A stretch of 64,000 nucleotides of DNA from Ricordea florida (lineage: Eukaryota; Cnidaria; Anthozoa; Corallimorpharia; Ricordeidae): assembly GCA_949710005.1 (NCBI GenBank), contig OX453281.1, forward strand, positions 28,092,839-28,156,838, written 5' to 3'. The notes under the pieces are model-generated. The model searched no databases and was not told the origin of the DNA. It saw only the letters and a program-made list of their open reading frames with translations. Positions 45,703 to 63,030 of the stretch are shown here, in pieces (the first letter of the stretch is position 1; each line of letters opens with the position of its first letter). A program made the translations under genes and the position numbers.

Positions 45703-46134
45703 TTATTCCATCCCCAAAGATTTTGGGGTTGCAGAAAATGGTATCTTTTTTGGTTGCGGTAATTGAGGAACTTGCGATAAATCAGCTATCCTATTTGAAT
45801 ATTCAACCCTTGCTTTTTCCTTATATCTCATAAAAAGATCAAATGCTGTAAACCCCAATCCAACAACTGATAAAACAGTAGTAAAAGATAACTCTGGAAG
45901 CCACGATTTCGCTTCACTATATGTATTTTCATTTGCTCCGCGGCCCGCCGGGGCCGGCTCTTCTTCTCGTTTCATTTCTCTAGCTAATGCTTCTTTTGCT
46001 TTTTTATTATATTCCGCTAATTTCTTTCCAGCAGCTACCTTTTTGGGATCCTTCTCCCTCTTTTTAGTATCTTTATTTTCGGGTTTGGGTTCTGCAGTAA
46101 TCTGCTCAACACCTTGTTCAGTTTGTTCAGTCAT
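45703..46134 (-). CDS. Basic protein with one membrane segment, 143 aa
   Basis: A Lys-rich block (KKREKDPKKVAAGKKLAEYN) covers about residues 20-60, and a single hydrophobic segment (FTTVLSVVGLGFTAFDLFM) lies near residue 95. The basic part resembles DNA-condensing or NLS-like tails. A GC-rich palindrome encodes PAPAGRGA in frame (45936-45960) at a point where the element 2 homolog (61878-62306) has unrelated residues. Possibly a DNA-binding membrane protein of the virion. Confidence 0.55.
   Translation of the reverse strand: MTEQTEQGVEQITAEPKPENKDTKKREKDPKKVAAGKKLAEYNKKAKEALAREMKREEEPAPAGRGANENTYSEAKSWLPELSFTTVLSVVGLGFTAFDLFMRYKEKARVEYSNRIADLSQVPQLPQPKKIPFSATPKSLGME
45936..45960. repeat. 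GC-rich palindrome in frame inside the 143-aa gene
   Basis: CTCCGCGGCCCGCCGGGGCCGG stands out sharply in AT-rich sequence and is largely self-complementary (GGCCCGCCGGGGCC). It is translated as part of the 143-aa protein. Confidence 0.6.
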
Positions 46135-46171
46135 TGTTATTTAGATGCAGAAGATAAGTTTTTAGATCTGC

Positions 46172-46732
46172 TTAGTGCGCAGTATCAACACCTTCAGCAG
46201 ATTGCTTAGTTTCTTGTTCAGTTGCGCCACCATTTACTGTTTCTTCTCTTGGAAATTGCTGATTTTTGTTGAATTTTATGTGTTTAGCAACCTGAAATAC
46301 TACGCTAGCAAGTGCTGTCAGTCTTCCTCCTTTTAACGCCAAGAGACCTACAAAGTTTGTTAATTCTCGATTAACCAAATTATCTTTCTTCAAATCATCG
46401 CAAAGAGCATCTATGTCATCTACCGGAACTAAATACGAAATAAGTTTGGAAACTAATTCCAAGGAAGAATCCACCAATCCTCCGTTAATTTTTTTACCCA
46501 TTACCGATTGATAACGATTAAAATATTTTTCAACATCTTTTGCGGATAATTTCTTTACATCTCCCAGACTCATTTCAATCCCTAAATATTCTTTTGTGGT
46601 CCCGAGAACAGCGAGAATGGCTAATGATTCTTGTTTTATTTCAAGTTCGTCATACTCAATCTTTTCTGTTCCTCCCTTTGGTTGGTCAGCTTTTCCATCT
46701 GTTTGGTTAATGTAATCTTCCGGCTTTGCCAT
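46172..46732 (-). CDS. Conserved helical protein, 186 aa
   Basis: The core (about residues 28-155) is well conserved with 62373-62966: ELEIKQESLAILAVLGTTKE, KYFNRYQSVMGKKINGGLVD and LVNRELTNFVGLLALKGGRL. The N- and C-terminal tails are variable. One moderately hydrophobic helix (LTALASVVFQVAKHI) occurs near the end. It starts seven bases after the ATPase stop, so the two probably share a transcript. Function unknown. Confidence 0.6.
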   Translation of the reverse strand: MAKPEDYINQTDGKADQPKGGTEKIEYDELEIKQESLAILAVLGTTKEYLGIEMSLGDVKKLSAKDVEKYFNRYQSVMGKKINGGLVDSSLELVSKLISYLVPVDDIDALCDDLKKDNLVNRELTNFVGLLALKGGRLTALASVVFQVAKHIKFNKNQQFPREETVNGGATEQETKQSAEGVDTAH

Positions 46733-46739
46733 CTTTTTG

Positions 46740-47366
46740 TTAAATCACTTCGGGTATCTCTAAATAGCAATTAAATGGGTACCGCAAACTCAAACATAAC
46801 CTAGAATATTTTTCTGTTTTCAGGAGTTTTACAAACTTTTTCCCCAATTCATAATCCAAATCTCCGCCGTAATCTTCGAAAAACATTTTCATCCCTTTCT
46901 GCGACGGATTATGAAAAGTAACAACGCAAGCTACATTTTCGCGGAATGGTTTTGCTATGGATGTCAATTGCTGAGTTAGAACCCAAACTGATAAACCATG
47001 ATGTCTTCCGGAGAATGCCAAATCTATGAACTTATTTGATCTTTTCTTCAGATCGTTTGAAACGGCGCAATCATCCAAAATTATTAAAGTATTAGTTCCG
47101 GAGAATAAAGTTTGGCAATCATTCAGCAATTCATTGATCTCATCCTGATTACTTGAATCTGGGGATAATACATAGAAATTTTTATCTCCTCGAGCAAAAT
47201 TATGATAAGTTTTATTTTTGGAATAGGTCGGACAAATTAAAACAATATATTCAAAAACTTTTCTGAAAGTTCCCCGGAGCTGTTCAATTAAGTACTTTGT
47301 CTTTCCGCAATTTGTCGGTCCTGTTATTATACAGTGAAATGGGATTTTATCACGCAAATCTTCCAT
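46740..47366 (-). CDS. Packaging ATPase (A32/FtsK-HerA type), 208 aa
   Basis: Walker A is GPTNCGKTKY (residues about 15-24) and Walker B is TLIILDDCAV (about 92-101). The downstream GRHHGLSVWVLTQQL matches the sensor region of the poxvirus A32 / virophage / Polinton genome-packaging ATPases. It is expected to pump viral DNA into preformed capsids at a portal vertex. It sits beside the capsid gene, as in most viruses of this lineage. The element 2 protein (63020-63652) is about 85-90% identical. Upstream is TCTAAAAACATAA. Confidence 0.85.
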   Translation of the reverse strand: MEDLRDKIPFHCIITGPTNCGKTKYLIEQLRGTFRKVFEYIVLICPTYSKNKTYHNFARGDKNFYVLSPDSSNQDEINELLNDCQTLFSGTNTLIILDDCAVSNDLKKRSNKFIDLAFSGRHHGLSVWVLTQQLTSIAKPFRENVACVVTFHNPSQKGMKMFFEDYGGDLDYELGKKFVKLLKTEKYSRLCLSLRYPFNCYLEIPEVI

Positions 47367-47409
47367 GATTTTTGTATCATAACATTATGTTTTTAGATTC
47401 TCCCTTCGG

Positions 47410-48651
47410 TCAGTACTTAATTGATCTCAAACTTGAATTCATAATCTCCATCATTGCATCTGCTACGACAAACATATGACAGGTTATGGTTCCAGTTCCG
47501 CCTTGTTTCCTTTTAATTTCTATTTTTACGCCGTCATGAGTATTATTTAGAGCAAGTCCCCCGCCATGAATACCATTATCTGGATGAGTTCTAGTATCAA
47601 CCCAAAGAGCAAACTTATCCGCGTAAAATTCTTTTTCTTTCAATGAAATTTGTAAACCATCATCCCGCTGGAATCTTTTTTTTACTGATTCCCAAAGATC
47701 GGATGGAATCATTCCCCTAGAGTATATTCTATTTGGTACGCCATCAACATCAATTTCAACTGAAGATATACCTGGATTATAAAAATTTTCAGAATCCCTT
47801 GCTCCTGTGGTTTGAGGTGATAAAAACAAAAACAATATTCCTGTCATTGATCTTCTCGGTAAATTAATATGCTGATTAATAACGCCATCTCCAGCAATGG
47901 AAAATGTAAAAGTTTTGTGCAAAGTAACATTTTCATAAAAAAATCCTTTACCCACTTGATAAGCTGCTTGAGCCTCACGGGCTAAGTATTCACTAGAAAT
48001 TGAAGAATATTCCAACTCTAAGTTTTTGATTGAATATGATGGTGCTTTAGTTGTATCTGAATAAATAAGAATATTAGCGACCGAGGCAAGCGTAAGCTCA
48101 AATATAAGATGATTTTCCAACGCTTTTGGGTAAAAAACTCCATGATCATTTAGAATAGGATGATTTAATGGTATTCTGTACTTTGTGCCGTGAACATTAG
48201 CTAAGACAACTTCTTTTGTATCTTGGGTTTTCATATCTCCAGCCTTTGTTCTAATTTTTCTGATATTTAACGAAGAAATACCTTGTTTTAATCTATCTTC
48301 TCTCTCTTCTTCGGTTAAGAATAAATCGTGATAGGTTTGAAATAAATCATATCCTTGAGTATCTTGCAAAGTTTCTCCTCCAAAAAGAACTTTCAGTCTG
48401 GTTACAAGATTGCGGCCTAAATTATTCACAACTGTGTTATTAGCATGACCCTCAACATCCAAATCAAATAGAAGAGATACACTTCCTGGAACAATCACCA
48501 AATTCTCGGCGAGTTTTGGAATATTTATGTATAATGTTTCTCCAGGGCTGGCTGAGGATGGGTTAAGAGTAATTCGATTCAATGTTGATTCTGCTTTCAA
48601 ACCAAAGGGTTCCTTGGGAATTCTATTTGGGTTAATTTTTTCAGACGTCAT
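47410..48651 (-). CDS. Probable major capsid protein (double jelly-roll), 413 aa
   Basis: The protein is beta-rich with no membrane segment. Landmarks are NNLGRNLVTRLKVLFGGETL, LNHPILNDHGVFYPKALENH, FTFSIAGDGVINQHINLPRR, VDGVPNRIYSRGM and FALWVDTRTHPDNGIHGGGL. The length, the repeated strand-rich halves and the position next to the ATPase fit a compact Polinton-like virus hexon protein. Element 2 has the same gene, cut by the window edge. The alternative that the 512-aa protein is the hexon cannot be excluded by eye. AAAGTATCTTATAAAT lies before the ATG, identical to the box before the 59-aa gene. Confidence 0.7.
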   Translation of the reverse strand: MTSEKINPNRIPKEPFGLKAESTLNRITLNPSSASPGETLYINIPKLAENLVIVPGSVSLLFDLDVEGHANNTVVNNLGRNLVTRLKVLFGGETLQDTQGYDLFQTYHDLFLTEEEREDRLKQGISSLNIRKIRTKAGDMKTQDTKEVVLANVHGTKYRIPLNHPILNDHGVFYPKALENHLIFELTLASVANILIYSDTTKAPSYSIKNLELEYSSISSEYLAREAQAAYQVGKGFFYENVTLHKTFTFSIAGDGVINQHINLPRRSMTGILFLFLSPQTTGARDSENFYNPGISSVEIDVDGVPNRIYSRGMIPSDLWESVKKRFQRDDGLQISLKEKEFYADKFALWVDTRTHPDNGIHGGGLALNNTHDGVKIEIKRKQGGTGTITCHMFVVADAMMEIMNSSLRSIKY

Positions 48652-48681
48652 TGTAAATTTATAAGATACTTTGGTTAACCT

Positions 48682-48861
48682 TTAAACCTTTTCTAACTTG
48701 GAAATATGTTTTAATAAACCTTCTCTCGCCTCGGGGATTAAAATCATAATTTTTAAAATTTGATCGCCATCTTCCATATATAGAATTTTTTTCCTAATAA
48801 TTTTTTTCATAATGTTGATTTGGTATTCGGTAAATTTTATTTCTTCTTCCTCCTCAACCAT
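48682..48861 (-). CDS. Microprotein, 59 aa
   Basis: ATG GTT GAG... encodes MVEEEEEIKFTEYQINIMKK and a further 39 residues, charged at the start and helical after. It is supported by an upstream box (AAAGTATCTTATAAATC) matching that of the capsid gene and by filling the gap between capsid and integrase. No family recognised. Confidence 0.5.
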   Translation of the reverse strand: MVEEEEEIKFTEYQINIMKKIIRKKILYMEDGDQILKIMILIPEAREGLLKHISKLEKV

Positions 48862-48892
48862 TTGATTTATAAGATACTTTGTTTATTTTTAA
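48862..48892. promoter_or_regulatory. 31-bp bidirectional promoter region
   Basis: It lies between the divergent starts of the 59-aa gene (-) and the integrase (+). It contains ATTTATAAGATACTTTG, a 17-bp sequence also present upstream of the capsid gene (48657-48673). Confidence 0.5.
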
Positions 48893-49933
48893 ATGAGCAA
48901 CGAAAATATACTCTCAAAAATATCGCTCCTTGAGCGGATATATTATTCAACTAGGGGATATTGGAAAGGATATTCCGCAATTCCTAAATTAGCTGAGAAA
49001 GCGAAAGTAAGTGAAAATGAGGCAAAACAATGGTTGCAAAAACAAGCAATATGGCAAATCTATCTACCTGCTCCTAAATATATACCTAGGCCTCATTGGA
49101 CTGTGGATAAACCCAATCAGATTCACCAAGCAGATTTATTATTTTTACCGCATGATAAAGTCGGAAGAAAAACTTATAAATATGCGTTAGTTGTGGTTGA
49201 TATCGCCTCGAGATATAAAGATGCTGAGCCATTAACCTCAAAAGAAAGTCGAGAGATATCAGAAGCTTTTAAGAAAATATATTCTAGAAGATTGAAATAC
49301 CCAAAAACATTAATGGTTGATCCTGGGAAAGAATTTATGGGCGAGGTTAGTAAACTCATGAATTACCATAATGTGAGAATGCAAAGAAGTGAAGCTGGTA
49401 ATCATAGAGCTCAAGCATTTGTGGAAAACGCAAACAGAATATTAGGAGAAAAATTATTTAGTCATCAATATGCGCAGGAAATGATTAGTGATGATCGATC
49501 AAGAGTATGGGTGAAAAGATTACCAGATATTCTAAAAACTTTGAATAATACGAAAAAGAGAATAACCGGCAAAGAGCCCGATGAGGCTATAAAAATGAAA
49601 GAGGTTGATATTGAACCCAAAAATTACAAACGCGCGGTGGGGCTTGATGAGGTTAGATTGCCGCCTATCGTTAAAGTTAGATATTTATTAACACCGGGCG
49701 AACTTGAAGGTGGAGAAAGAAGACGAGCTACTGATCCTATTTGGAGCATCAAAGTTTATGATATCTCCAGAAGCGTTATTTCATCCAATCAGCCGGTTTT
49801 ATATTATTTAATTGATGGGCCGCGGCGAGGATTTGTAAGGGAAGAATTACAAGTTATTCCTTATGATACTGAGTTGCCACCCAATTCTGTTTTGGTAAGA
49901 TCCAGCTCTGCCGGGGAGGGCGAAGCCCGATAA
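48893..49933 (+). CDS. DDE (retroviral-type) integrase of Polinton family, 346 aa
   Basis: The N-terminal helical region (about residues 10-60) has no HHCC zinc finger. The rve core carries D80 (QADLLFL), D143 (MVDPGKEF) and E178 (AFVENANR), a D,D34E spacing. The C-terminal domain is SH3-like (IWSIKVYDISRS...YLIDGPRRGFVREEL). It should insert the linear viral DNA and create the 5-6 bp target duplication seen at the ends. Its last 73 bases overlap PolB convergently. The final residues (SSSAGEGEAR) are encoded by a GC-rich palindrome, suggesting a replaced C-terminus. Confidence 0.9.
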   Translation: MSNENILSKISLLERIYYSTRGYWKGYSAIPKLAEKAKVSENEAKQWLQKQAIWQIYLPAPKYIPRPHWTVDKPNQIHQADLLFLPHDKVGRKTYKYALVVVDIASRYKDAEPLTSKESREISEAFKKIYSRRLKYPKTLMVDPGKEFMGEVSKLMNYHNVRMQRSEAGNHRAQAFVENANRILGEKLFSHQYAQEMISDDRSRVWVKRLPDILKTLNNTKKRITGKEPDEAIKMKEVDIEPKNYKRAVGLDEVRLPPIVKVRYLLTPGELEGGERRRATDPIWSIKVYDISRSVISSNQPVLYYLIDGPRRGFVREELQVIPYDTELPPNSVLVRSSSAGEGEAR

Positions 49934-52900
49934 TGGCCATATGGAAGAGTATGTATTCCGTCTTTTTGAATGATTCTCTTATCATCATAGGCGGATAGCG
50001 CTTTCTTATTAACTGTTTTTGTGTAAATATTGTGTAGTTTTGATCCTATTAAATTTTGCGATCTCATTTGCGGTTCTTTAGTATTCAGACAATTTTTGAA
50101 ATCATTAAAACTTATTGTTTTCTTAATAACTAATTTCTTTGTTCCTTTATTCTTCTTTATCTCTTTGCCGTTGTCCATTAATAGGGCATATTGTTTAGCT
50201 CCCAAACCCACAAATTCTGTGGGGATACTTCCGCCAAACTCATCTTTGAACTTGCCAATTACTTTTTTGTTTGTTTCATCCCAAATACCAGATTTGTGGT
50301 TTTTTGGATAGTTGCTAGTGTCGAACTTTTCCCGAACATCTTGGCTTATATCTTCATAGAAATCCTCCGTTTCTATATTATATACGAGGCTATCAGTATC
50401 AGTCATAAGTAATTCGGCTTTTTCTCCATATTTCTCTTTGATATAATTATAATGAAAGTCGTACATTATTTGTTTACTTAGATCTAAAATGGAAAACCCC
50501 ACATAAACCGGTTTATTAAATCTTATTTCTGTTTTCTTCATATTTATGGCGGCAAGATCCTCAGAAAAGATGGTAAAATGATTAAAGTTCGGTTTTCTTA
50601 TTAATTTTTTAGCTGATTCTATATTATTAACTAATCTAACGTCTATCCTTTTTCTCATATTTTCCATTGTTTTACCAAATACGGAGTTATTCATTAGTTT
50701 GAAGAAATCCTTTTCAAAGTCGTTCTTCGCATATTTTCTCAATTCAGTATTCCGATCGATGTAAACCTGTAACCACTCAGACTCTTGAAATTTAATTCCC
50801 TTATAAATCTTTGTTATTTTTAATCCTTGTTTTTCATAAAATTTAAGGGTTTCATGATGAACTACATATCTTTTCTTATCAAATAGGTTTGGTATTAATT
50901 TCTTGACTTTATTAACAGTAAGTCTTTCTGGAGCTAAAGGCAGATCTTTATGGCTATCATGAAGATTTTTTGGGTATTCCAAATCAACCTCAACTACGCA
51001 AGGTATATCTCTCCAATTTTCGAGCTCTTCATTTGGAATCCATTTAAACCCCCGTTTGGGTAATTTCTTGCTCATTGCAGCTCCGTATAAGTTATTCGCG
51101 TCAAGATAAATTATATAACTTATAAGCTGATTTATTTCAAAATCTGTCATATAGGGGTTATTAGCTTTGGCATATCTTTTCGATATTTGGGATGTTCCAC
51201 CTCTAATCCCTTTCTCAATAAAAAGCAGCATATTAACGTCTGTGAACAATTCCAAACTAACTTTAGTTAATTTTAGCTTTGCGTCCCAAGATAATCCTGG
51301 AGATGTAAAATAGTGAGCGGGATCTAAACTATAATTATTAATACACACATCCCTAAATTTCTCAAATACGTCGGCAAGCTGTAATACATCTATTTTTAGG
51401 TATAAATCATGATAATCGCTCATTGTTTTCATGCCAAATGTTTCCCACACCTTTTTAGCGTGTTCATAATCTTCATCCGAAATATCTTGATTATTTAGTT
51501 TTGAGAAAAACGCTTCCTTTGGTGGGAGTTGGGTTTCATTAAGTTTATCAATGCGATCAAAATAATCATAAGGGAACACACCCTTTCTCAACAATAGTTT
51601 TAACTTTTCTCCCGCGAAATGTTTCTTAATTTCTGTCATATTTTTATCTATTGGGGAAAAACACATACTGCCTAATAACTTGCAATTCTTACATTGATCG
51701 CAATTACCAACACCATTAAAAGTAATAATCTTCCCATCTTTTATGTATCTTTTCAAACATTTTCCAGGCTTGCATGACTCGCATTTTTCACATTTTGTAA
51801 GATTGTCAACCAAAGCGCAAAGAGAGTATGGCATAAATTTATAAGAATCAATGAATCTTATTGTTCTAGTAATGGGCTTTTCGCTGTCATCTTCATCCTC
51901 ATCGCAATCGCAATCATGCCCACAATCATAGTTAATTAAAATTTTCTTTGAGAAACTAATATACTTTTCATCGGTGTTGGCTAAACAGCTCATTTCACCC
52001 TTTGTTTTACCAAGATTCTTAATGAACAGATGGGAATCATACCCTGACAGATTATGAATTACAACTGGAACGAATTTGGGAATAACATATTTTAAGTTAC
52101 AGATATTATGCGCCGCTCCCCTATATTTTCCAGTAAGATGGCAATGATCTATTACTTTTTTAAAATCTTCTTCTTCACTTTCAGAAAATTCGCGCTCACA
52201 TATATGACAATGAGTTGCATTTTCATAATCTTTTTTATCCATTTCTGTCATATTCTTTTTATCATAAACTTTAAAATTTTCCTTTTTTTCTTCTATTAGC
52301 TCAAAAATTTTCCTAACATCTCTTTCTAAATATTCTGTAAATATCTGCGAGACATCCTCATCATCGGATTTTGCGGTATAATTCACACAGATTTTAAAAT
52401 CCTTTGGCAATATACTTTCATCGAAACATTTAATATAATAGCAGAACCCCGATGCTTTGTGCATTTGGTAATTTTTTGTAAAGCTTTTAATTTCACTTGG
52501 CGAACAAGTATGTATTGGTATTAGCCGGCCTTCAAAATCTACATAAACAACAAAAGGCGCTCGCATTTTATTTTTAAAATTTTTAAAGTAAATAAATTTT
52601 GGGCTACCATCTTCATTCCTAGGCATTTTAATTTTAACTTCGCCGTGCGAATCGCAGTATTCTTTGTGTTCTTGTAAAATCCTTTGATCATAAAATGAGT
52701 TGAAACATCTAAGGCAGAAATGTTTTTTGTGTTTATTTTTATCATTTTCGGATGATAAAAGTCTGCTAACATTATTTACTAAAATATAGTGGTGTTTTTC
52801 GCCATTATTTATTAAAAGTAATGTTATAAATTTGCAATCGCATAACTTGCATTCGTGGTTATTGCAATCGCATTTCTTGCATCCGCATTCTTCGCATTCG

Positions 52901-55079: not shown

Positions 55080-55116
<37 letters not shown>

Positions 55117-55400
55117 GAGCAAAGAGAAATACTACTCAGAAGTAAGTTATAACATTTGCTTTATTTTCAAAAGAGAGTAGTAATTCACTGATACGGGGAC
55201 AAAATATTTAATAAAAAAATTGTTCAAGGATTTATCAGAAAATTAAACAGAGATTTTTTTCCCGTTTACAAAAGTATCCGCAAATCCGCAAAAAATAACC
55301 AAAGATTTATCAGAAAATTAAACAGAGATTTTTACCAAGAAAGAAAATAAAATTTTGAATTTTTAATATTAATTTAAAGACATAACTTACGAAAGTATAA
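54919..55400. other. Spacer between the two elements; possible terminus of element 2
   Basis: It holds a run of about 14 G (54975-54988), a TA dinucleotide tract (about 55090-55117) and a direct repeat of about 33 bp (55225-55260 and 55299-55333; core GATTTATCAGAAAATTAAAC) 74 bp apart. The last part contains ATTTAAAGACATAAC about 20 bases before the first gene of element 2. The end of element 2 must lie here, but its other end is outside the window, so the terminal repeat cannot be drawn. Confidence 0.45.
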
Positions 55401-55793
55401 ATGGAAAAGTTAAAAAGATTAAAATTTGTGGAATTAAAAAAAATTTCAAAAGAGTTGAAAATTAAAGGGCGATCTAGAATGCGTAAAGAAGATTTTATTA
55501 AAGAGTTAAAAAATTTTACATATGAGGAGATTATTAAATTAATACCAAAAGATACTATAAATAATAAAAATAATTATAATTATATTTGTATTCATGGAAA
55601 GTGTAAATATTTTTGTAGAGAGTGTGGAGGTACACAAATATGTGAACATAATAAAATTAAGTCATACTGTAAAGAATGTAAAGGTTCTCAAATATGTGAA
55701 CACAAATTACAAAGGTATATATGTAAAGAGTGTAAAGGTAAAGGAATATGTAAACACAATAAACAGAAGAGGCAATGTAAAGAATGTTGTTAA
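55401..55793 (+). CDS. SAP-domain protein with Cys/His repeats (element 2), 130 aa
   Basis: Residues 1-45 (FVELKKISKELKIKGRSRMR) form the SAP-like domain. Residues about 65-130 have three to four C-x2-C-x5-C-x-H repeats (CKECKGSQICEHKLQRYICK). It is one or two repeats shorter than the homolog at 39203-39658, and outside the motif positions the sequences differ widely. It is the first gene at the left end, as in element 1. TTTAAAGACATAAC precedes the ATG. Confidence 0.7.
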   Translation: MEKLKRLKFVELKKISKELKIKGRSRMRKEDFIKELKNFTYEEIIKLIPKDTINNKNNYNYICIHGKCKYFCRECGGTQICEHNKIKSYCKECKGSQICEHKLQRYICKECKGKGICKHNKQKRQCKECC

Positions 55794-55857
55794 ACATAAC
55801 AAAAAAAATGAATTTTTTAATGTTAATTTAAAGATAAAAAAATAGTATTAAGAATAA

Positions 55858-56346
55858 ATGGAGAATAATAGTATTAAATTTAAATATATTAATGAAAAAG
55901 GGTTTTGTTTGCATGAATTTATGGATTCAATAAATGAAGATTTGTTAAAAAAGATCTCAAAAAATCGTGGTTTTATTATTGAAAAAGATGGAGATTATTG
56001 TTTTTGCAAAATTTATTTTCAAAAGAATAATATTATTCGTTGTAGTAATGAATTTATTTTATATTTTGATTTGGGTTTGGTGTATGATGAAGATTTGTTT
56101 GATAAAATAATTTATTATAGAGGTGATGAAGATGATGATTATTATGATGATATTAATGGTTTAATTGTTGATTCATTTGTAATCGAAATAAAAATAGATA
56201 AACATAAGGTATTACATAAAAAGAAATTCTACAAAGATTTTTATGATGAACTAATGTTTGTAGCATGGAATCCGGATAGGTTTATGGATTGGTGTCTTGA
56301 TTTTGAGGAGTTAAGGGATTTGAAAGAACGTTGGGGGAAAAATTAA
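55858..56346 (+). CDS. WCLD-motif protein (element 2), 162 aa
   Basis: An acidic protein (GDEDDDYYDDINGL) with the C-terminal signature ELMFVAWNPDRFMDWCLDFE, as in the 202-aa protein of element 1. The N-terminal start also aligns (LHEFMDSINEDLLKKISKNR against CDFIEEIKEDLLKNLVKNRE). The middle differs in length and sequence. ATTTAAAGATA lies about 26 bases before the ATG, and a perfect hairpin follows the stop. Confidence 0.65.
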   Translation: MENNSIKFKYINEKGFCLHEFMDSINEDLLKKISKNRGFIIEKDGDYCFCKIYFQKNNIIRCSNEFILYFDLGLVYDEDLFDKIIYYRGDEDDDYYDDINGLIVDSFVIEIKIDKHKVLHKKKFYKDFYDELMFVAWNPDRFMDWCLDFEELRDLKERWGKN

Positions 56347-56376
56347 GTTATATAACGCAAGTAAGTGTTATATAAC
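56347..56376 (+). terminator. 3' hairpin between convergent genes (element 2)
   Basis: GTTATATAAC occurs twice, ten bases apart. Since this decamer is itself palindromic, the pair forms a perfect stem. It starts at the stop codon of the WCLD gene, in the same position as 40360-40389 in element 1. Confidence 0.65.
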
Positions 56377-56380
56377 AAAA

Positions 56381-56403
56381 GACCTGAAGGACCAGCTACG
56401 CGG
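56381..56403. repeat. GC-rich insert GACCAGCTACGC family, copy 1
   Basis: GACCTGAAGGACCAGCTACGCGGAAAT stands between the hairpin and the 211-aa stop. Element 1 has no such bases here. The GACCAGCTACGC.GAAAT core recurs at 63014-63030. Confidence 0.6.
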
Positions 56404-56407
56404 AAAT

Positions 56408-57043
56408 TTATCTAAATCTTAAACTAAAAGTTATGGGGGAACCCTTCAGATCGAGTTTTTTCCATTCATTATCTAAAATGGTTAAATCGAAGTGGTTTAT
56501 AAGACTCTCATATTTTCGAACTGGAATTGTTGGATAATCCTTTGAGGGTATGTTTGCAAGTAGGTGTGATGGTGAGAGTTTCACAAGTTCTCCATATTTG
56601 GTTTTATTCATATATGAAGACTTATTATCAACTATACTACACATAAGTCTCAGCGGTTCTCTAATCTGTATATTTATGGGGTATAATTCACCAGGATTTA
56701 TGACTTCAGGCAACCCTAAACCAATAGAAAACCCTCTAGTAAGTTTAATGTTGAAGTTCTTATTTGAATATAGATAGTCAACAGTATCAGTCTCAATTAT
56801 TGTTATCTTTTCCCTATCAGTATCTTTAAGAAAGATCGATTGAATATCACGCAACGAATATGTACCCGGTTGAAATATTATGAAGCCTCGATTCTTATCA
56901 TTGAACAATATCTGTTGATCCTTGAAATTAATCAATCTTTTGGTTTGTATATTACAATCCAGGAGCTGTATCTCTCGAAGATTTTTAAGTGGAGGATCTA
57001 AATAAATCCTGGTTTCAGACTCATACATGGTAATACTCAACAT
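56408..57043 (-). CDS. Candidate minor capsid protein (element 2), 211 aa
   Basis: Same length as 40398-41033, and conserved throughout, with matching ends (YESETRIYLDPPLKNLREIQ; LKGSPITFSLRFR). The uninterrupted frame and conserved length argue for purifying selection. A jelly-roll fold and virion role are inferred. The upstream box TTTAAAGATG is followed directly by a 109-bp GC-rich insert. Confidence 0.45.
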   Translation of the reverse strand: MLSITMYESETRIYLDPPLKNLREIQLLDCNIQTKRLINFKDQQILFNDKNRGFIIFQPGTYSLRDIQSIFLKDTDREKITIIETDTVDYLYSNKNFNIKLTRGFSIGLGLPEVINPGELYPINIQIREPLRLMCSIVDNKSSYMNKTKYGELVKLSPSHLLANIPSKDYPTIPVRKYESLINHFDLTILDNEWKKLDLKGSPITFSLRFR

Positions 57044-57075
57044 TTTGTTTTGATTACATCATATTCATCTTTAAA

Positions 57076-57184
57076 TCGAGCTTTGCTCCCCTTTGGGGTT
57101 CCAGCTCGGGCGAGACCCTCCGGGCCGCGAAGCAAGCCCGGGAGACCTCCGGTCCCGACCAGCGAATCGACCGGCTACGCCGTA
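57076..57184. repeat. 109-bp GC-rich composite palindromic insert
   Basis: It splits the promoter region that is continuous in element 1 (CTTTAGATTTATATAATC). It contains CCCCTTTGGGG, AGCTCGGGCGAGACC, GGGCCGCGAAGCAAGCCC and CCCGGGAGACC modules. Its first 34 bases with flank (57073-57106) are identical to 59751-59784. Confidence 0.75.
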
Positions 57185-57402
57185 ATTTCTATAATCAAAA
57201 CATTAACAAAAAAAAAAATTTGCATTGACGTAATCGCATTCCTGAGCGACGTTAGAAACCGACCTTTTTAAAGTAAACATAAAATCTACTTTTCGATTTC
57301 AAATCCACTTTACATTTTGCTTGTTGCTATGTCGTAAAAGTATGCAATCTATTGTTCTACACGTGAACACTAATCCAAAAAACAATGATAATCACGTGAA
57401 AT

Positions 57403-58992
57403 TTACCGAAATAGATACCACGCCAACCCTCCACTGATAATTATAAATGTTAATATACGCACTTCATGCTCGCTTCGTGCATTGGTTTCATGTTGCGTGG
57501 TCACGTCAGACTTTTTATTTTGCGTTGGGGGGATTTTTGGTTTTGGATTTGTCTCAACTATTGAATGAGGTAACTTTCGGCTTTGCCGACCCCGATCTTC
57601 GATCGGTTTTACCTTTGAAGATCCCATGTTATGACTTATTCCAACCGGTTTTGATTCCGTGTTTAGCGAATTATTCACCCCAAATTTCATATCACCAGTC
57701 GCTTTCATAAGTTTGTTGTTAAAACCAGTCACGCTTTCAGTGTTGATTATCATATTACTTGGCATTAGCCACACACCAGGAGCAATAGCTAAATCAAGCC
57801 GTAATTTCGCTTCTTGTACAGCTAATTGATATCTTTGGATGGAATTGGAAATGTCATTCTCGATCACACTACTTTCAAATAAAGCTAAGAATTCTTGTTG
57901 TGTCTCAATCGCTCCACCGCCATTACCATAAATTGAATTTCTTGTGTTAACTTGTGCTCCCAATATACAGTAAACAAAAGCTTCAGCAGATCTATTCAAT
58001 CTACCAAGTCCAGCTTTAGTGAGCCCATGACCACTTGTTGGGATAAACCAAGCATATTTGAAATCAGCAAAGTCATCATTACGGATAAATGAGATTAGGT
58101 CACCCTTTTCTTTTTTACCTCCTTCATCAGCGAATTTACCACCCTCACCGGGCCACTTATCTGCTTCAACATCATAATTCCTTATAATATGTACATTTTG
58201 ATATCCACCTCCTTTTCCATGATATCCTGCACCATAATCAAGGAATATATCTCCCAATCCACCGTTTCTACCACCTTTCCATCTAAAATCAGCCGAAGTA
58301 CTAACCCCAAATTCAGCACACAATCGTTGATATGCTACTTTATTATAGGGATTATTATTTATTACAAAAGGTTGCTCATCAGGTAAGGGAAGACTCAATT
58401 CATATAATATCCTCCTTATTGTGAAATATATATGAAACTTAATGAAACTATTAACTACTTTGGGGTAATTTAGACTTTCAAAAGGACTTATACCACATCC
58501 AGATGTTGCACACCAAACTGCAAAGTTAAGTTGTTGTGGCCAATAATTCATATCAGGAGCGTTTAACCATTTTCTACTTTGTTTTCCAAATTTGAATGTT
58601 ACAACTTGAGATGTAAATATGTTTCTCATCTTTGCTGTGAATTTCTTAGTATTTGAAACGTATATATCTAGAAAGGTTAGCATTTTTGTTACATCAGTTG
58701 TAAAGTCATCAAAGTTAATAGCAGGTATAGGATAAGATTGATTGGTTATGGTTAAACTCTTTGGAAACGAACTAACTTTAACTTTCTTTTCTAAACCTAA
58801 ATCTTCCCATAACAATGTTTTCAAATTAGGAGAAAGATCATCAGCCCATGTTTTTCCAGTAGGATCATCATTTGACATGATTGTTGTTCCATTAACTTTC
58901 CACTTAATATATCCTCCATATGAATCATTCACAAATGTAAATTTACTTAGATCAGCATTTGGATACCTATTTCTGAAATCTTTTAGTGTCAT
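57403..58992 (-). CDS. Large conserved virion-associated candidate with C-terminal anchor (element 2), 529 aa
   Basis: Collinear with the 512-aa protein of element 1 over the first about 430 residues (QQLNFAVWCATSGCGISPFE identical; AWFIPTSGHG.TKAGLGRLN). The linker after about residue 440 is longer and unrelated. Part of it (PIEDRGRQSRKL) is encoded by a GC-rich hairpin module, and NARSEHEV by another. The C-terminal membrane segment (ILTFIIISGGLAWYLFR) is retained. The conserved body and anchor with a freely evolving linker suggest a tethered structural protein. Confidence 0.6.
   Translation of the reverse strand: MTLKDFRNRYPNADLSKFTFVNDSYGGYIKWKVNGTTIMSNDDPTGKTWADDLSPNLKTLLWEDLGLEKKVKVSSFPKSLTITNQSYPIPAINFDDFTTDVTKMLTFLDIYVSNTKKFTAKMRNIFTSQVVTFKFGKQSRKWLNAPDMNYWPQQLNFAVWCATSGCGISPFESLNYPKVVNSFIKFHIYFTIRRILYELSLPLPDEQPFVINNNPYNKVAYQRLCAEFGVSTSADFRWKGGRNGGLGDIFLDYGAGYHGKGGGYQNVHIIRNYDVEADKWPGEGGKFADEGGKKEKGDLISFIRNDDFADFKYAWFIPTSGHGLTKAGLGRLNRSAEAFVYCILGAQVNTRNSIYGNGGGAIETQQEFLALFESSVIENDISNSIQRYQLAVQEAKLRLDLAIAPGVWLMPSNMIINTESVTGFNNKLMKATGDMKFGVNNSLNTESKPVGISHNMGSSKVKPIEDRGRQSRKLPHSIVETNPKPKIPPTQNKKSDVTTQHETNARSEHEVRILTFIIISGGLAWYLFR
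57461..57606. repeat. GC-rich hairpin modules in frame in the 529-aa linker
   Basis: TTCATGCTCGCTTCGTGCAT at 57463 and CGGCTTTGCCG followed by CCGATCTTCGATCGG at 57578-57606 are short hairpins inside the coding linker, absent from the element 1 homolog. Confidence 0.6.
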
Positions 58993-59097
58993 TTTATTAC
59001 TTTTGAATAAGATGAATATGTTTTTAGATCACCTCTTTTCTAATACCTGCAAAACAATTACATCCTACATCAGTTTTCTCATATGAAATTTTTAATG

Positions 59098-59136
59098 AGC
59101 GGGATCGGGCGAAGCCCTCCCCAGCTAAGCTGGAGT
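59098..59136. repeat. GC-rich palindromic unit between the 529-aa and 228-aa genes
   Basis: AGCGGGATCGGGCGAAGCCC then TCCCCAGCTAAGCTGG: two hairpins in a row. It is the same family as 49899-49933 in element 1, with the GGGCGAAGCCC hairpin in the opposite orientation. Confidence 0.7.
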
Positions 59137-59145
59137 GGTTCCTCT

Positions 59146-59832
59146 TCAAGGTTCTCCGACTAGCTCTTTTAATAGATCCGCACGAACTTCTCTTCTTATC
59201 TGCGATATGTTTAAGTTTTTTTCTGTATCTCTCCTAAATTTTTGACGGATTTCTAGTTTTAGTTTTTGAAACTTTTCTAACTCTGCTAAAATTATGGAAA
59301 ATTCTTGATCAGATATAACATTATCTTTCAAAGCCTTTGAAACCAAGTCGTTAATGGTGTTTAATTTTGATTTCGCTATAGAAGCAGTCTGTTCATGTTT
59401 GCTAACTTTATTTGAAAGTCTTTTTGAGGCTGCACCAAATCCAACAGATACTCCACCACAAATTCCACCGACAACACCCAACGGAACACCAATAATAGCC
59501 CCAAAACCGGTAAGAGAAGTTCCAAGTCCACTTGCAGATAGAATAACTGAAATCACACCACTACAAACACTGATTTTTGTAAATATTCCTCTTGCTCTAT
59601 TGTATTTTTTCCTTACATCTTCATAATGTTTAATTTCTTTCTCAAGATTTTGTAATACTTCACTCGATTTTTGCAGTCTGAAATTAACTGGATCAACATT
59701 ATTTTGCAATCGTCCGGAGGACGGGCCCGGTTGAGCCGGAATTTGCGGATAAATCGAGCTTTGCTCCCCTTTGGGGTTCCAGCTTCTCTGGTCGGGACTG
59801 GCTGTGCCATAAATTCTATTGTAGTCTTCCAT
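59146..59832 (-). CDS. Coiled-coil protein with glycine-rich hydrophobic hairpin (element 2), 228 aa
   Basis: From residue about 50 it is nearly identical to the 205-aa protein of element 1 (LQKSSEVLQNLEKEIKHYED; SGLGTSLTGFGAIIGVPLGV). The N-terminus is extended by about 23 residues, because GC-rich palindromic modules are translated in frame (SPDQRSWNPKGEQSS and QPGPSSGRLQ). This shows the modules are tolerated in a disordered tail. TTTAAAGATATCG lies about 25 bases before the ATG. Confidence 0.6.
   Translation of the reverse strand: MEDYNRIYGTASPDQRSWNPKGEQSSIYPQIPAQPGPSSGRLQNNVDPVNFRLQKSSEVLQNLEKEIKHYEDVRKKYNRARGIFTKISVCSGVISVILSASGLGTSLTGFGAIIGVPLGVVGGICGGVSVGFGAASKRLSNKVSKHEQTASIAKSKLNTINDLVSKALKDNVISDQEFSIILAELEKFQKLKLEIRQKFRRDTEKNLNISQIRREVRADLLKELVGEP
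59703..59812. repeat. Two in-frame GC-rich palindromic modules
   Basis: Module 1 is at about 59710-59740 (CGTCCGGAGGACGGGCCCGG). Module 2 is at 59751-59812 and begins with the 34 bases shared with 57073-57106 (CGAGCTTTGCTCCCCTTTGG...). Both interrupt the alignment with element 1 without breaking the frame. Confidence 0.75.
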
Positions 59833-59884
59833 ATTGTATTTTACTGATCAACACGATATCTTTAAATTGATACGAACAGATTTG

Positions 59885-61072
59885 TTACCGTCTCTTCTTT
59901 TTAAACTGTTCCACAAAATATAGAACCACAGCCATTATCAACAACCATGCGTTCTTTCCCAAAAATCCAATAACCTCACCTGCTGTTTTGAATAGAAAGC
60001 TCACGATTGCACCAACCATTCCTGGTAATATTTCACCTAGTTTTTTACCTATAGTTTTCAAACCATTACCAACACCTTTACCCAATTTGGCTAGACCTTT
60101 GGAAAGATTAGAAACGATAACACCAATTACTACACCAACAGCACTAATAACAGCAAAGACTGTAAAACCATATTTTTTGAAGATAGCCTTCACACGTTCT
60201 TGTAATGGTAGATTTTTAAGTATTTCTTCATTTTTACTCTCCAGATCAGCTATTTGTTCTTGGTTGTAAATAATACTCTTTCTTGTTAGTTCCCTAAATT
60301 TATCAACTTCAGCTTTTAATCTTTCATTACTACGTTCTAACATTGTTAAATTTGACTGTCCCTTCTTATACTTATCTATTTCATCTTTGTATCGATTTAA
60401 TTCACTTTTAAGTTTCCCAACCTCTGTTTTTGCATCAGTCTTCTGTTTAACAGCTGCATCTAAATAGCTTTCACTTTCAGCGATTCTGGTTTGTTGTTTT
60501 TCAATTATAGCTCTCAACTCTTTTCTATCAATTGTAACATATTGTTCTATCTCCTTTTCACCTGTTTCTACAACTGCTCTTAACCCATCTAACGCGTTAT
60601 GTAAATCCTTATTTTCTTCATTTTTTTCATTCAATTGTGACTTTAGCTCATCATTTCTTTTAATCAAGGTTATCGAATCAACCCCCAGAGCCTTTTTTAT
60701 GGTAGGTGGTAAATTATCATTCAATTCACCATCCAGTGTGAATAAATTGTATTTCTTACTTCCTTTTATTTTTAATCGAACTTCCACACGATCATATTCA
60801 TCTAGACCAGCTGTGAATGGAGCTTTAGCAGGATCAACTTCAGGGAATTTACGTTTAATCTCATTCCAAGCATAATCTTGATCTCTAAATTTAGCAACTA
60901 ATAAGGGATCAGTTTCACTAAATGATGTTTCTTCTTCATCATAACCAGGGTAATTTAGGCGAGTGGTTGATGATATTGGATCCATTTCCATATTTTCTCT
61001 ATCAACATCATCGTCTAGATCAGTTGGTTCAAAGTCTGGTATTTCTTTAGGTATATCTCCTCCTTCTGCCAT
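59885..61072 (-). CDS. Long coiled-coil protein with C-terminal membrane segments (element 2), 395 aa
   Basis: I chose MAEGGDIPKE as the start because TTTAAAGATTTCTTACTGA lies about 25 bases upstream and the 405-aa homolog begins MAEY; a 15-codon upstream extension is open but unlikely. Coiled coil about residues 130-290 (RSNERLKAEVDKFRELTRKS). The C-terminal 100 residues (GYTVFAVISAVG-like, then GKGVGNGLKTIGKKLGEILP and AWLLIMAVVLYFVEQ) are almost unchanged from element 1, in contrast to the coil. Confidence 0.6.
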   Translation of the reverse strand: MAEGGDIPKEIPDFEPTDLDDDVDRENMEMDPISSTTRLNYPGYDEEETSFSETDPLLVAKFRDQDYAWNEIKRKFPEVDPAKAPFTAGLDEYDRVEVRLKIKGSKKYNLFTLDGELNDNLPPTIKKALGVDSITLIKRNDELKSQLNEKNEENKDLHNALDGLRAVVETGEKEIEQYVTIDRKELRAIIEKQQTRIAESESYLDAAVKQKTDAKTEVGKLKSELNRYKDEIDKYKKGQSNLTMLERSNERLKAEVDKFRELTRKSIIYNQEQIADLESKNEEILKNLPLQERVKAIFKKYGFTVFAVISAVGVVIGVIVSNLSKGLAKLGKGVGNGLKTIGKKLGEILPGMVGAIVSFLFKTAGEVIGFLGKNAWLLIMAVVLYFVEQFKKKRR

Positions 61073-61105
61073 GATTTTTTTACTAATCAGTAAGAAATCT
61101 TTAAA

Positions 61106-61159
61106 CGTGCAAAGCACGCCGCTGCATAGCAGTAGACCCCTTAGGGCCGCGAAGCAAAC
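61106..61159. repeat. GC-rich palindromic insert before the 395-aa gene
   Basis: CGTGCAAAGCACG, GCTGCATAGCAGT and ACCCCTTAGGGCCGCGAAGC are three hairpin modules in a row. The last is almost identical to 62336-62361. It lies directly upstream of the TTTAAAGAT promoter box, where element 1 has the 84-aa gene and its leader. Confidence 0.75.
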
Positions 61160-61167
61160 ATTTTTTT

Positions 61168-61587
61168 CTAAAAGAATTTACTAGTCATATATCCCAACGC
61201 TAACATACCACCACCTACATATGCCATTTCACCCATCTTTTGATTGTCACTAGGTCTATAATAATCCGCAAAGCGGGGCTCTTTCAGAGTTTCAGAGAAT
61301 TTTGGTTCATGTGTCTGACTATACAATTTCAAAGCTTCATCGGTATTAGAAATATTTTTTGAAGCCTGATATTTATTATCATTTTGTTGAGATTGCCAAT
61401 CAATTAGTTTCTGTCTTTTTTCCTGATATTCAGCATAATCTTTTTGATATTTTTCTAATGCTTTATCGTGTCGTATTCGTTCTGTATCTGTTTTATCACC
61501 TGATAGAGATTTTGCAAGATATGAACCACCAACAAAAGCGGTAGCATTCAATATAGCTCCACCAATCATCATTGCTATTGTTGCCAT
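61168..61587 (-). CDS. Small two-membrane-segment protein (element 2), 139 aa
   Basis: Homolog of 45046-45438, with the same hydrophobic N-terminus (IAMMIGGAILNATAFVGG) and C-terminus (GGGMLALGYMTSKFF). The nine extra residues come from an internal near-duplication (EPKFSETLK, EPRFADYY) around a CCGCAAAGCGGGG hairpin at about 61266. It follows the 72-aa gene as in element 1, but here the gap holds a GC-rich module. Confidence 0.6.
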   Translation of the reverse strand: MATIAMMIGGAILNATAFVGGSYLAKSLSGDKTDTERIRHDKALEKYQKDYAEYQEKRQKLIDWQSQQNDNKYQASKNISNTDEALKLYSQTHEPKFSETLKEPRFADYYRPSDNQKMGEMAYVGGGMLALGYMTSKFF

Positions 61588-61589
61588 GT

Positions 61590-61606
61590 TTCTTCGCTTC
61601 GCTCAG
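61590..61606. repeat. TTCGCTTCGCTC module
   Basis: Its complement contains GCGAAGC. It occupies the short gap between the 139-aa start and the 72-aa stop, which is only two bases in element 1. Confidence 0.6.
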
Positions 61607-61618
61607 GTCTATAAATCC

Positions 61619-61837
61619 TTAATTTGGTAAAATCTTTTGATCCTCTAAATATGTTTTTAGGTACATACTACCAGACAATACAGCTACCCACTTGGCATAA
61701 TTTGTAATACTTGAGGATGGGTCGTTCATAAATGATTCTTTCATAACCTTTTTAGCTACATAACCAACACCAGCTGCTAATCCGATAAGGACTGCAGAAT
61801 CAGTAACAGTTTTCACAAGTTTGTTTTCAGTTGACAT
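61619..61837 (-). CDS. Small membrane protein (element 2), 72 aa
   Basis: MSTENKLVKTVTDSAVLIGL with two hydrophobic stretches, about 89% identical to the protein at 45441-45659. The promoter-like TTTAAAGGTTTCTTACTGA precedes the ATG at about 20-35 bases. Confidence 0.65.
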   Translation of the reverse strand: MSTENKLVKTVTDSAVLIGLAAGVGYVAKKVMKESFMNDPSSSITNYAKWVAVLSGSMYLKTYLEDQKILPN

Positions 61838-61877
61838 AATTTTTACTGTATCAGTAAGAAACCTTTAAATCGCTTAC

Positions 61878-62306
61878 TCATATCATTCCTATTTTTGTAG
61901 TTTGCTGAGGCTGAGGTTGGGTGGGTTGTGGTAAAGAAATATTTGATGTTTTAGGTTCTCTATTTTTATAATATCTCATAAACATGTCAACTGCAGTAAA
62001 TCCTATTCCAACAATGGATAATACAGTTGTAAAAGATAGCTCTGGAATCCAGGCCTTTGTGTTTTCTTTGTCTTCATTGGAATTTTCTTCCTTTTTACTC
62101 TCCGCCTGTTCCCTTTCACGTTTCATTTCCCTGGCTAACGCTTCTTTTGCTTTTTTATTATATTCAGCTAATTTCTTACCAGCTGCGACTTTTTTAGGAT
62201 CTTTCTCTTTCTTTTTAGGAACATTACCTACGGTTTTTTCTTCTTTTGTTGTATCCATTGTAATTTGCTCAACACCTCCGGTTCTTTCTTCTACTTCTTC
62301 AGACAT
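61878..62306 (-). CDS. Basic protein with one membrane segment (element 2), 142 aa
   Basis: The Lys-rich core (KKKEKDPKKVAAGKKLAEYN) and the hydrophobic segment (FTTVLSIVGIGFTAVDMFM) match the 143-aa protein of element 1. The tails differ: the end here is Pro/Gln-rich, and the middle is acidic/Lys-rich where element 1 has the in-frame GC-rich module. TCTAAAGATTTCTTAATGA lies upstream. Confidence 0.55.
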   Translation of the reverse strand: MSEEVEERTGGVEQITMDTTKEEKTVGNVPKKKEKDPKKVAAGKKLAEYNKKAKEALAREMKREREQAESKKEENSNEDKENTKAWIPELSFTTVLSIVGIGFTAVDMFMRYYKNREPKTSNISLPQPTQPQPQQTTKIGMI

Positions 62307-62335
62307 AATTTTTTACATATCATTAAGAAATCTTT

Positions 62336-62361
62336 AGACCCCTTTAGGGCCGCGAAGCAAA
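62336..62361. repeat. GC-rich module ACCCCTTTAGGGCCGCGAAGC
   Basis: Nearly identical (one extra T) to 61134-61158 and related to 57114-57131. It lies upstream of the 142-aa promoter box and next to the 197-aa stop codon. Confidence 0.75.
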
Positions 62362-62372
62362 TCATATCATGC

Positions 62373-62966
62373 TTAGTAGACGGTATCATACCCACCAGCA
62401 GCCTGCTCAGTTTTGTTCAGCGGAGCTGGTTGAGTTTTAGAATCATCAGTATTAGTACTTGAAACTTCTTGTATTCCTTCGAGGCCCTTCGGGTCTTTGT
62501 TTAATTTTATGTGTTTAGCAACCTGGAATAGTCCGCTGGCAAGTGCTGCTAATCTTCCTGCTTTCAATGCTAATAAACCTACAATGTTTGTCAGTTCGCG
62601 ATTAACCAAATCATCATTCTTCAAATCCACACAAAGAGCTTCTATATCATCCAAGGGAACAATGTAAGAAATTACTTGAGAAACTAATTGAAGAGATGAA
62701 TCTACTAATCCACCACTAATTTTCTTACCTAATACCGCCTGATATCGATTATAATATTTTTCAATGTCTTTTACTGATAATTTTTTTATATCACCCAGAC
62801 TAATATCAACCCCCAAATATTCCTTCGTAGTTCCAAGAGATGCGAGAATAGCTAGTGATTCTTGTTTGATTTCAAGTTCCTCACTTCGTTCGGTATCTTT
62901 TACATCACTAATATCGGCGGAGCCGGGCCCGCCTTCCAGGCGGATATAATCTTCAACTTCTGTCAT
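62373..62966 (-). CDS. Conserved helical protein (element 2), 197 aa
   Basis: The core matches the 186-aa protein of element 1 (ELEIKQESLAILASLGTTKE; LVNRELTNIVGLLALKAGRL). The N-terminal RLEGGPGSAD and the C-terminal DPKGLEG are encoded by GC-rich palindromes (62915-62943 and 62476-62495) absent in element 1, again in variable tails. Function unknown. Confidence 0.6.
   Translation of the reverse strand: MTEVEDYIRLEGGPGSADISDVKDTERSEELEIKQESLAILASLGTTKEYLGVDISLGDIKKLSVKDIEKYYNRYQAVLGKKISGGLVDSSLQLVSQVISYIVPLDDIEALCVDLKNDDLVNRELTNIVGLLALKAGRLAALASGLFQVAKHIKLNKDPKGLEGIQEVSSTNTDDSKTQPAPLNKTEQAAGGYDTVY
62476..62495. repeat. In-frame palindrome CCTTCGAGGCCCTTCGGGTC
   Basis: A GC-rich hairpin module translated as DPKGLEG within the 197-aa protein; the element 1 homolog has an AT-rich segment there. 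Confidence 0.6.
62915..62943. repeat. In-frame palindrome near the 197-aa N-terminus
   Basis: CGGCGGAGCCGGGCCCGCC followed by TTCCAGGCGG; it is translated as RLEGGPGSA in the 197-aa protein. Confidence 0.6.
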
Positions 62967-63005
62967 CTTATAATTTTCTAATAATACAAAGATTCTTTTA
63001 AAACG

Positions 63006-63030
63006 GTTTTGCCGACCAGCTACGCTGAAA
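63006..63030. repeat. GC-rich insert GACCAGCTACGC family, copy 2
   Basis: GTTTTGCCGACCAGCTACGC then TGAAAT lies at the ATPase stop codon. It matches the module at 56381-56403 and alters the last residues of the ATPase (ends ISA, where element 1 ends EVI). Confidence 0.6.

Follow-up and report, generated by a model that had tools for sequence, protein, structure and literature searches.

Palindromic micro-elements within coding sequences are known from some bacteria and double hairpins from organelles; here, elements comparable to both are described from viruses resident in an animal genome, namely from Polinton-like proviruses in a stretch of 64,000 nucleotides of the corallimorpharian Ricordea florida (assembly GCA_949710005.1, contig OX453281.1, positions 28,092,839 to 28,156,838), the whole of which is referred to as the window. 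The Allomyces double hairpin elements are organellar tandem stem-loop repeats, and the GC clusters of yeast mitochondria are short GC-rich stem-loops regarded as preferred recombination sites; to our knowledge, how the bacterial palindromic and the organellar double-hairpin elements move is unsettled. Rickettsia palindromic elements (RPEs) and Wolbachia palindromic elements are palindromic repeats lying within existing open reading frames with the frame kept (PMC3767692; here and below, published accounts are cited for parts of their text), and the repetitive extragenic palindromes (REP) of bacteria are 20-40-bp palindromic repeats of high copy number (PMC3733652). The hairpin elements of sponge mitochondria, alongside which the yeast GC clusters are named, are scattered, have conserved stems and varying loops and are suspected of mobility or of a role in recombination; they include repeats inside rRNA and some protein genes, with a 90-bp hairpin insert in nad5 (PMC2800124). 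The organelle palindromes of Volvox carteri are judged selfish, are mutually inserted, occur in both orientations and have conserved loops of 3-5 nt (PMC2670323). The miniature inverted-repeat transposable element (MITE) submariner of Pandoravirus salinus represents presumed parasitic palindromic elements that invaded the genome of a eukaryotic DNA virus (PMC5799277), so that palindromes able to move have a precedent in viruses of this kind.

From about 38.5 kb onward, the window holds two Polinton-like proviruses in one orientation (provirus 1 and provirus 2, the latter truncated by the window end). The short GC-rich modules scattered through them are probably very small non-autonomous mobile elements of this virus family, 26-30 nt long and built of two hairpins with 3-nt loops and a TCC/GGA joint. 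The best-defined form, called type A, consists, in order, of TC, a hairpin of 4-5 bp with a 3-nt loop, TCC, a second hairpin of 3-5 bp with a 3-nt loop and a final A. It measures 30 nt, with shorter forms of 28 and 26 nt, and in the 30-nt form the stem split shifts (4+5 or 5+4 bp) with the total held constant. Types B and C resemble it in being double hairpins; they occupy TAAAT/AAATC and TTTAAAC sites, and several adjoin the TTTAAA motif upstream of genes.

The evidence that carries this reading is the comparison of filled and empty sites among related proviruses. In 82 provirus pieces (L numbers below), 54 type A copies were counted, 42 of them distinct; the set requires the final A and a G as first stem letter, which leaves outside it, for example, the copy of L062 at 61310 ending in T. 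Pieces L087-L118 were ascertained, having been chosen for holding a half-element, and L037 overlaps window provirus 2. Under strict rules (flanks of 25 nt or more to both sides, an identity of 80% or more and a partner without the element at the place), 48 of the 54 copies have a relative lacking the element at the same place and 6 have no partner. The net insert is exactly 30 or 27 nt in 32 of these 48 copies (23 of 35 distinct contexts) and a multiple of three in 39 of them; for the most part, copies of 28 nt add a net 30 (7 copies) and those of 26 nt a net 27 (7 copies). The best filled/empty pairs, each compared over 140 nt with a net insert of 30, are L056/L058 and L063/L097 (100% identity) and L038/L042 (99.3%), followed by L083/L078 (97.9%) and L049/L050 (97.1%). 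In 39 of 41 flank contexts, an A immediately precedes the element. A looser test, in which some partners hold an element, gave partners for 53 of 54 copies and a net 30 or 27 in 36 of 53, and is superseded by the strict one.

A second comparison was made with 20 homologous 5.7-kb pieces from elsewhere in the genome, of which the 18 collinear ones were aligned with both window proviruses (L049 and L057 were left out as not collinear). Minority insertions of 12 nt or longer number 159 in this alignment, and 52 of these have a GC content of at least 0.55; read site by site, the alignment displays empty and filled copies next to each other. The reading of the modules as ancestral sequence at fixed sites is therefore rejected by the presence and absence of the element at one and the same site among relatives, filled and empty copies coexisting per site.

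The structure of the type A double hairpin is under constraint. Counted over the genome by one stem pair of the half-element, G-C occurs 963 times and A-T 329 times, as against 16 for A.C and 9 for G.T, with no match in the reversed controls; these counts include copies related by descent at one site. In a set of 14 distinct type A copies, 98.4% of base-pair cells are paired compared to 90.7% after shuffling, and two-sided changes are found in 15 cells compared to 5.1, neither value being reached in any of 500 shuffles. Four copies with 5+4 stems, whose register differs, were left out of this pair count, and the 14 copies come mainly from a list already requiring two hairpins (27 of 34 distinct pattern hits). 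Because of this preselection, the genome-wide counts are the fairer and independent test of covariation. An Rfam scan of the modules gave no family at gathering score. Sequence searches of the PDB returned nothing useful.

The first-pass annotation, made from the letters of the window, had proposed that the modules within genes are always in frame, and this is borne out and extended by the alignment, by the integrase and by open-frame counts. In the alignment, leaving out insertions within 6 nt of a gene edge, GC-rich minority insertions are multiples of three in 40 of 40 cases inside genes (33 of 33 distinct) compared to 9 of 22 in intergenic DNA (9 of 21 distinct); where the GC content is below 0.45, the corresponding figures are 34 of 48 and 6 of 17. 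For type A this frame-keeping is partly built into the unit, since intergenic copies (L038, L049, L056, L093, L100) also show a net 30. In the provirus pieces, viral genes hold 35 of the 54 type A copies within an open frame, on one strand or the other, and 29 distinct 30-nt copies leave on average 5.48 of the 6 frames open compared to 5.02 ± 0.16 after shuffling. Survival inside genes is thus explained by an insert that keeps the frame and is mostly free of stops. The cleanest cases come from copies of the following gene, where 9 or 10 extra residues stand between aligned blocks:

48893..49933, plus strand: rve integrase gene of provirus 1; elsewhere in the genome, type A elements lie inside this gene at two sites.

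The earlier proposal that in-gene modules always sit in variable tails or linkers needs correction, as two other proviruses (L094 and L095) carry a copy in the middle of the integrase.

Genome places were sampled for type A alone (on contig C1, the first 12 hits and 20 chosen along its length; on C2-C4, 8 of the A-T form), and all 40 fall within or next to genes of Polinton-like viruses; the contigs concerned measure 36-49 Mb. A relaxed search allowing one mismatch gave 57 matches in 259 kb of provirus pieces and none in the same pieces reversed; in two random host pieces together with the 38-kb host part of the window (46 kb), it gave two chance-like matches. Ordinary host repeats, including MITEs residing in host DNA, are rejected as an explanation on these grounds, all 40 type A places sampled being in or beside viral genes and the 46 kb of host DNA giving chance-like matches only.

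Outside this genome, type A-like peptides occur in 8 integrase relatives among the 120 listed of 3417, all 8 being among the 32 with at least 80% identity; seven were found by pattern and one (P0141) by eye, the eye check covering the first 45. Seven further matches to the pattern VGE..ARDW, P0176 included, were set aside as ancestral sequence and are uncounted. For the 529-aa protein, which has 936 relatives, the 120 listed contained no type A peptide signature. These protein data by themselves tentatively suggest that type A is a young, lineage-limited expansion. IMG/VR was scanned with a 30-nt sequence from an array and with a degenerate pattern for type A, neither of which gave a hit; this absence says little because the provirus ATPase has no confirmed relative there; the 36 scattered hits of a 15-mer scan of the same database were taken as chance.

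Within the window itself, 16 GC-rich hairpin modules had been listed in the first-pass annotation, and a hairpin-like module is readable by eye at all 16, with small coordinate corrections. Measured in 41-nt windows, GC is at least 0.49 at 13 of the 16 (the mean being 0.33-0.34), and it exceeds the 95th percentile of the module's own provirus (0.46 in provirus 1, 0.51 in provirus 2) at 10 only; the lowest values are found at 56381 (0.41), 61590 (0.37) and 62476 (0.41), where the module is shorter than the 41-nt window. Three recurrences reported earlier are present, the first as 35 identical nucleotides rather than 34, at 57072 and 59750, the second, ACCCCTT(T)AGGGCCGCGAAGC, at 61136 and 62338 (formerly 61134 and 62336), and the third, GACCAGCTACGC, at 56390 and 63014 (formerly 56381 and 63014). 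GC-rich hairpins were also counted against 20 dinucleotide shuffles. For stems of at least 5 bp with GC of at least 0.75, provirus 1 has 4 vs 1.1 and provirus 2 has 5 vs 0.4; for stems of at least 6 bp with GC of at least 0.6, the values are 4 vs 0.75 and 2 vs 0.2; and for stems of at least 7 bp with GC of at least 0.5 there is little or no excess (1 vs 0.35 and 0 vs 0.4). The two host halves are mostly at chance (2 vs 2.5, 1 vs 1.55, 1 vs 1.7), one of them being in excess in the class of stems of at least 5 bp and GC of at least 0.75 (5 vs 2.1, with a shuffle maximum of 4). The modules, in window coordinates, are:

45936..45961: module resembling type C, placed in frame within the 143-aa gene of provirus 1.
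49901..49930, minus strand: type A, 30 nt, TC-GGGC-TTC-GCCC-TCC-CCGGC-AGA-GCTGG-A, where the integrase and 1523-aa genes overlap at their 3' ends; L094 is empty here, net 30.
56381..56403: short hairpin module next to the 211-aa gene, by eye.
57077..57182: array of nested hairpins in the gap separating the 211-aa and 529-aa genes; provirus 1 is empty here.
57463..57481: module read by eye as a hairpin, in the C-terminal part of the 529-aa gene.
57578..57606: double hairpin CGGC-TTT-GCCG + CCGATC-TTC-GATCGG in the C-terminal part of the 529-aa gene; similar in L070 and L075.
59105..59134, plus strand: type A, 30 nt, TC-GGGC-GAA-GCCC-TCC-CCAGC-TAA-GCTGG-A, between the 529-aa and 228-aa genes.
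59711..59740: double hairpin CGTCC-GGA-GGACG + CCGGT-TGA-GCCGG within the 228-aa gene.
59755..59809: type B array in the 228-aa gene, with direct repeats TAAAT at 59750-59754 and 59810-59814; it has the 35 nt in common with 57072.
61106..61155: upstream of the 395-aa gene, hairpin CGTGC-AAA-GCACG together with a copy of type C.
61271..61297: in the 139-aa gene, a GC-rich insert of 27 nt that keeps the frame; 5 of 20 aligned sequences have it.
61592..61606: short module with a GCTTCGC hairpin, upstream of the 139-aa gene; several copies are without it.
62338..62358, plus strand: type C element ACCCCTTTAGGGCCGCGAAGC, upstream of the 142-aa gene.
62476..62495: GC-rich hairpin insertion in the 197-aa gene.
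62915..62943: GC-rich hairpins in the 197-aa gene, with CCGCCT-TCC-AGGCGG at 62929-62943.
63005..63027: type B element GGTTTTGCCGACCAGCTACGCTG, followed by AAATC, overlapping the 3' end of the ATPase frame; L059 is empty here and reads TTTAAATCACCT.

At the site of the 59105 element, other proviruses give a net 30 for L056 against L058 (100% over 140 nt) and for L049 against L050 (97.1%). The array at 57077, whose site was described as a clean insertion and is indeed empty in provirus 1, has the base unit CGAGC-TTT-GCTCG-GGAC-CGGC-TAC-GCCG, grown by elements inserted into it. Elements within elements are thus found in this series as well as in copies of L052 and L056, and in L048 a type A element sits in the AAA loop of the 61106 hairpin. 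By eye, a segment bounded by GGTC/GACC inverted repeats appears flipped between L037 (window 57101-57182) and L038, as if a cruciform had been inverted.

Two genes of the carriers, those of the rve integrase (PF00665) and of an A32-type packaging ATPase (PF04665), pass the Pfam cut-offs. As to a double jelly-roll major capsid protein, a 413-aa protein matches Capsid_N below the cut-off (E 0.0011), and a 512-aa viral protein, provisionally labelled as such a capsid protein, has no family match in Pfam or in other profile and sequence searches. A 1523-aa protein, whole or in pieces, matches no polymerase family; it is called polymerase-like for D..NLYG and DTDS motifs read by eye, which we take to be PolB motifs. 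It contains one domain, surfacing only when the protein was scanned piecewise, that may bear on the question of movement:

52093..52224, minus strand: endonuclease VII domain within the 1523-aa polymerase-like protein (PF02945, E 1.8e-6; phrog_423, E 4.8e-7), candidate mover.

In the assembly (537.8 Mb, 48 contigs), at least 150 ATPase copies were scored from 5040 first-look candidates of a protein search, and the copies among the matches listed have 95-100% identity and no internal stops. The total is probably larger than 150, and the expansion of the proviruses is large and probably recent. The first 38 kb of the window, its host part, hold TRAF/MATH genes, reverse-transcriptase genes and a weak RING match.

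Several further observations concern the provirus genes. The integrase and polymerase-like genes share their 3'-terminal stretches at window 49861-49933, and the type A element there lies in an open frame of both. A gene with a Rho_N-like start (PF07498 for the copy of provirus 1) lies at window 39203-39658 and 55401-55793, this start being followed by Cys/His-rich 54-nt repeat units, the number of which differs between proviruses 1 and 2. Near window 59016, L062 and L064 have about 200 extra nucleotides that by eye resemble a second, diverged N-terminal piece of the 529-aa gene. A conserved, promoter-like motif (minus strand GTTTAAAGATTTCTTACTG...) stands upstream of several viral genes, and insertions of types B and C often lie right next to it:

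43374-43404, 44628-44658, 59837-59867, 61076-61106, 61840-61870, 62309-62339: upstream motif.

Taken together, the exact borders, the recurrent size, the unrelated sites, the two orientations and the nesting argue for a unit that is copied to new places and against slippage or host repeats. The copies may multiply by transfer to new places of viral DNA during replication and recombination, the element possibly being recognised as folded single-stranded or cruciform DNA, and they would represent selfish DNA tolerated as almost harmless. Because a 30-nt unit encodes no enzyme, something has to act in trans. A candidate, at the level of a guess, would be a structure-specific nuclease that the virus itself encodes in the endonuclease VII domain of the polymerase-like protein; endonuclease VII of T4 cleaves cruciforms and other branched DNA, an activity that would suit hairpin elements. 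A bolder version, in which the modules form a distinct class of mobile elements hosted by one virus family (a double hairpin of net 30 or 27 nt, selected for translatability in nearly every frame so as to live inside the genes of a compact viral genome, and mobilised in trans by the polymerase-linked structure-specific endonuclease), is conceivable and at present rather doubtful. If true, it would place them among the smallest mobile elements known, as a parasite of a genomic parasite.

Several results weigh against mobile elements, or against a simple form of that reading. No copy has been seen moving, and the mover is a candidate only. Other net sizes occur in 16 of the 48 type A copies with a strict partner, in part because the nearest relative carries further indels. 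Type A shows no constant target duplication (0-2 nt), and the direct repeats of 4-5 nt at type B could be part of the element. In 321 kb of phage loci from IMG/VR, which are richer in GC, the relaxed search likewise returned 12 matches. Further pair types in the 14-copy set are no more numerous than in shuffles (6 vs 6.7), and fold z-scores of the inserts (median -0.32 vs +0.29) are not informative. A first test of insertion into loops found 3 of 47 cases with 2.5 expected, and a second, on triloops, 10 of 41 vs 4.4 for stems of at least 3 bp (reached in 2 of 500 shuffles) and 3 of 41 vs 0.7 for stems of at least 4 bp (17 of 500), so that a preference for hairpin loops, which would speak for an enzyme cutting hairpins, is at most moderate and a general loop-targeting rule weak. 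Finally, ectopic recombination or gene conversion between proviruses could serve as the route of spreading without a transposase.

This last point, taken as the sole process, gives the alternative that survives best: spread by homologous recombination or gene conversion among co-resident proviruses alone, each site having been filled once by a rare accident. At least 150 closely similar ATPase copies in one genome would offer partners for such exchange, and at site 59099 the copies of provirus 2, L049, L056 and L093 differ in stems and loops and are nonetheless well paired, as fits an exchange of whole hairpins. Homologous exchange cannot, however, create new sites with little common flank beyond an A, and the 30-nt type A unit is found at many non-homologous sites, in both orientations, nested and with exact borders, which renders this explanation improbable. 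Less probable again is a function for the virus, with the modules acting for instance as transcription terminators, processing signals or protein linkers that are kept by selection and exchanged between viruses. The paired changes that maintain the stems would be expected of such parts, and type B and C copies directly adjoin the upstream TTTAAA motif of several genes; yet presence varies among relatives at the sites inspected, the type A copies inside genes lie on either strand and make up 35 of 54, and no Rfam family reaches gathering score. Repeated local origin in AT-rich DNA through errors of the viral polymerase (foldback or template switching), which typically produce short hairpins, may apply to the smallest modules, several of which (61590, 62476) are simple hairpins, but it is contradicted for types A and B by 963 + 329 copies of one unit with none in reversed controls, by the recurrent size and TCC linker and by 35 identical nucleotides at two sites, and is as a whole highly unlikely. 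Mobile double hairpins thus remain the preferred reading.

Under that reading, the proviruses offer a route by which virus proteins acquire short new peptides, and one genome brings together more than 1,200 exact half-unit copies, an abundant provirus family, empty and filled sites and graded relatives, with the same virus encoding few candidate enzymes for moving the elements. Target choice, precision of borders, stem covariation and rates are hence measurable by comparison alone. For Polinton-like viruses, no prior account of such elements had been known to the first-pass annotation; none was found by title or abstract start, and the main texts examined on these viruses contain no word beginning with palindrom or hairpin.

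Compared to the systems described above, the mobile palindromes of submariner are inverted-repeat transposable elements of a giant virus, and the part of that account used here, which names Polintons only among its references, holds no 30-nt double hairpin or in-frame life inside genes (PMC5799277). REP sequences share the character of small, high-copy palindromes, being extragenic by name and bacterial (PMC3733652). In Volvox, the chloroplast motif TCCCCTTTAGGGA resembles the type C core CCCTTTAGGG, probably by coincidence; save for one rRNA module the Volvox repeats occupy intergenic and intronic organelle DNA, and nuclear copies are judged inert (PMC2670323). The sponge elements belong to organelle DNA, some are very AT-rich, and a fixed 30-nt in-frame unit in many protein genes is not seen in the portion of the account drawn upon (PMC2800124). 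The yeast GC clusters are likewise mitochondrial and not restricted to a virus family. The parallel with RPEs that had been drawn at first holds for behaviour, the in-frame insertion inside genes being met here as well, and fails for membership, since RPEs are bacterial elements of 100-150 bp (PMC3767692), in contrast to the units of 26, 28 or 30 nt with covarying stems and nesting in proviruses of an animal genome. RPEs reside in Rickettsiales genomes, whereas the proviruses of the window belong to a 538-Mb genome and adjoin host DNA with TRAF/MATH genes and weak RING matches. The organellar double hairpins, with which the modules share two adjacent hairpins as one repeated unit, are closer in form than RPEs; in location they differ, all 40 type A places sampled being at Polinton-like virus genes on contigs of 36-49 Mb and not in organelle DNA. 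The elements of the window thus resemble both RPEs and organellar double hairpins and belong to neither.

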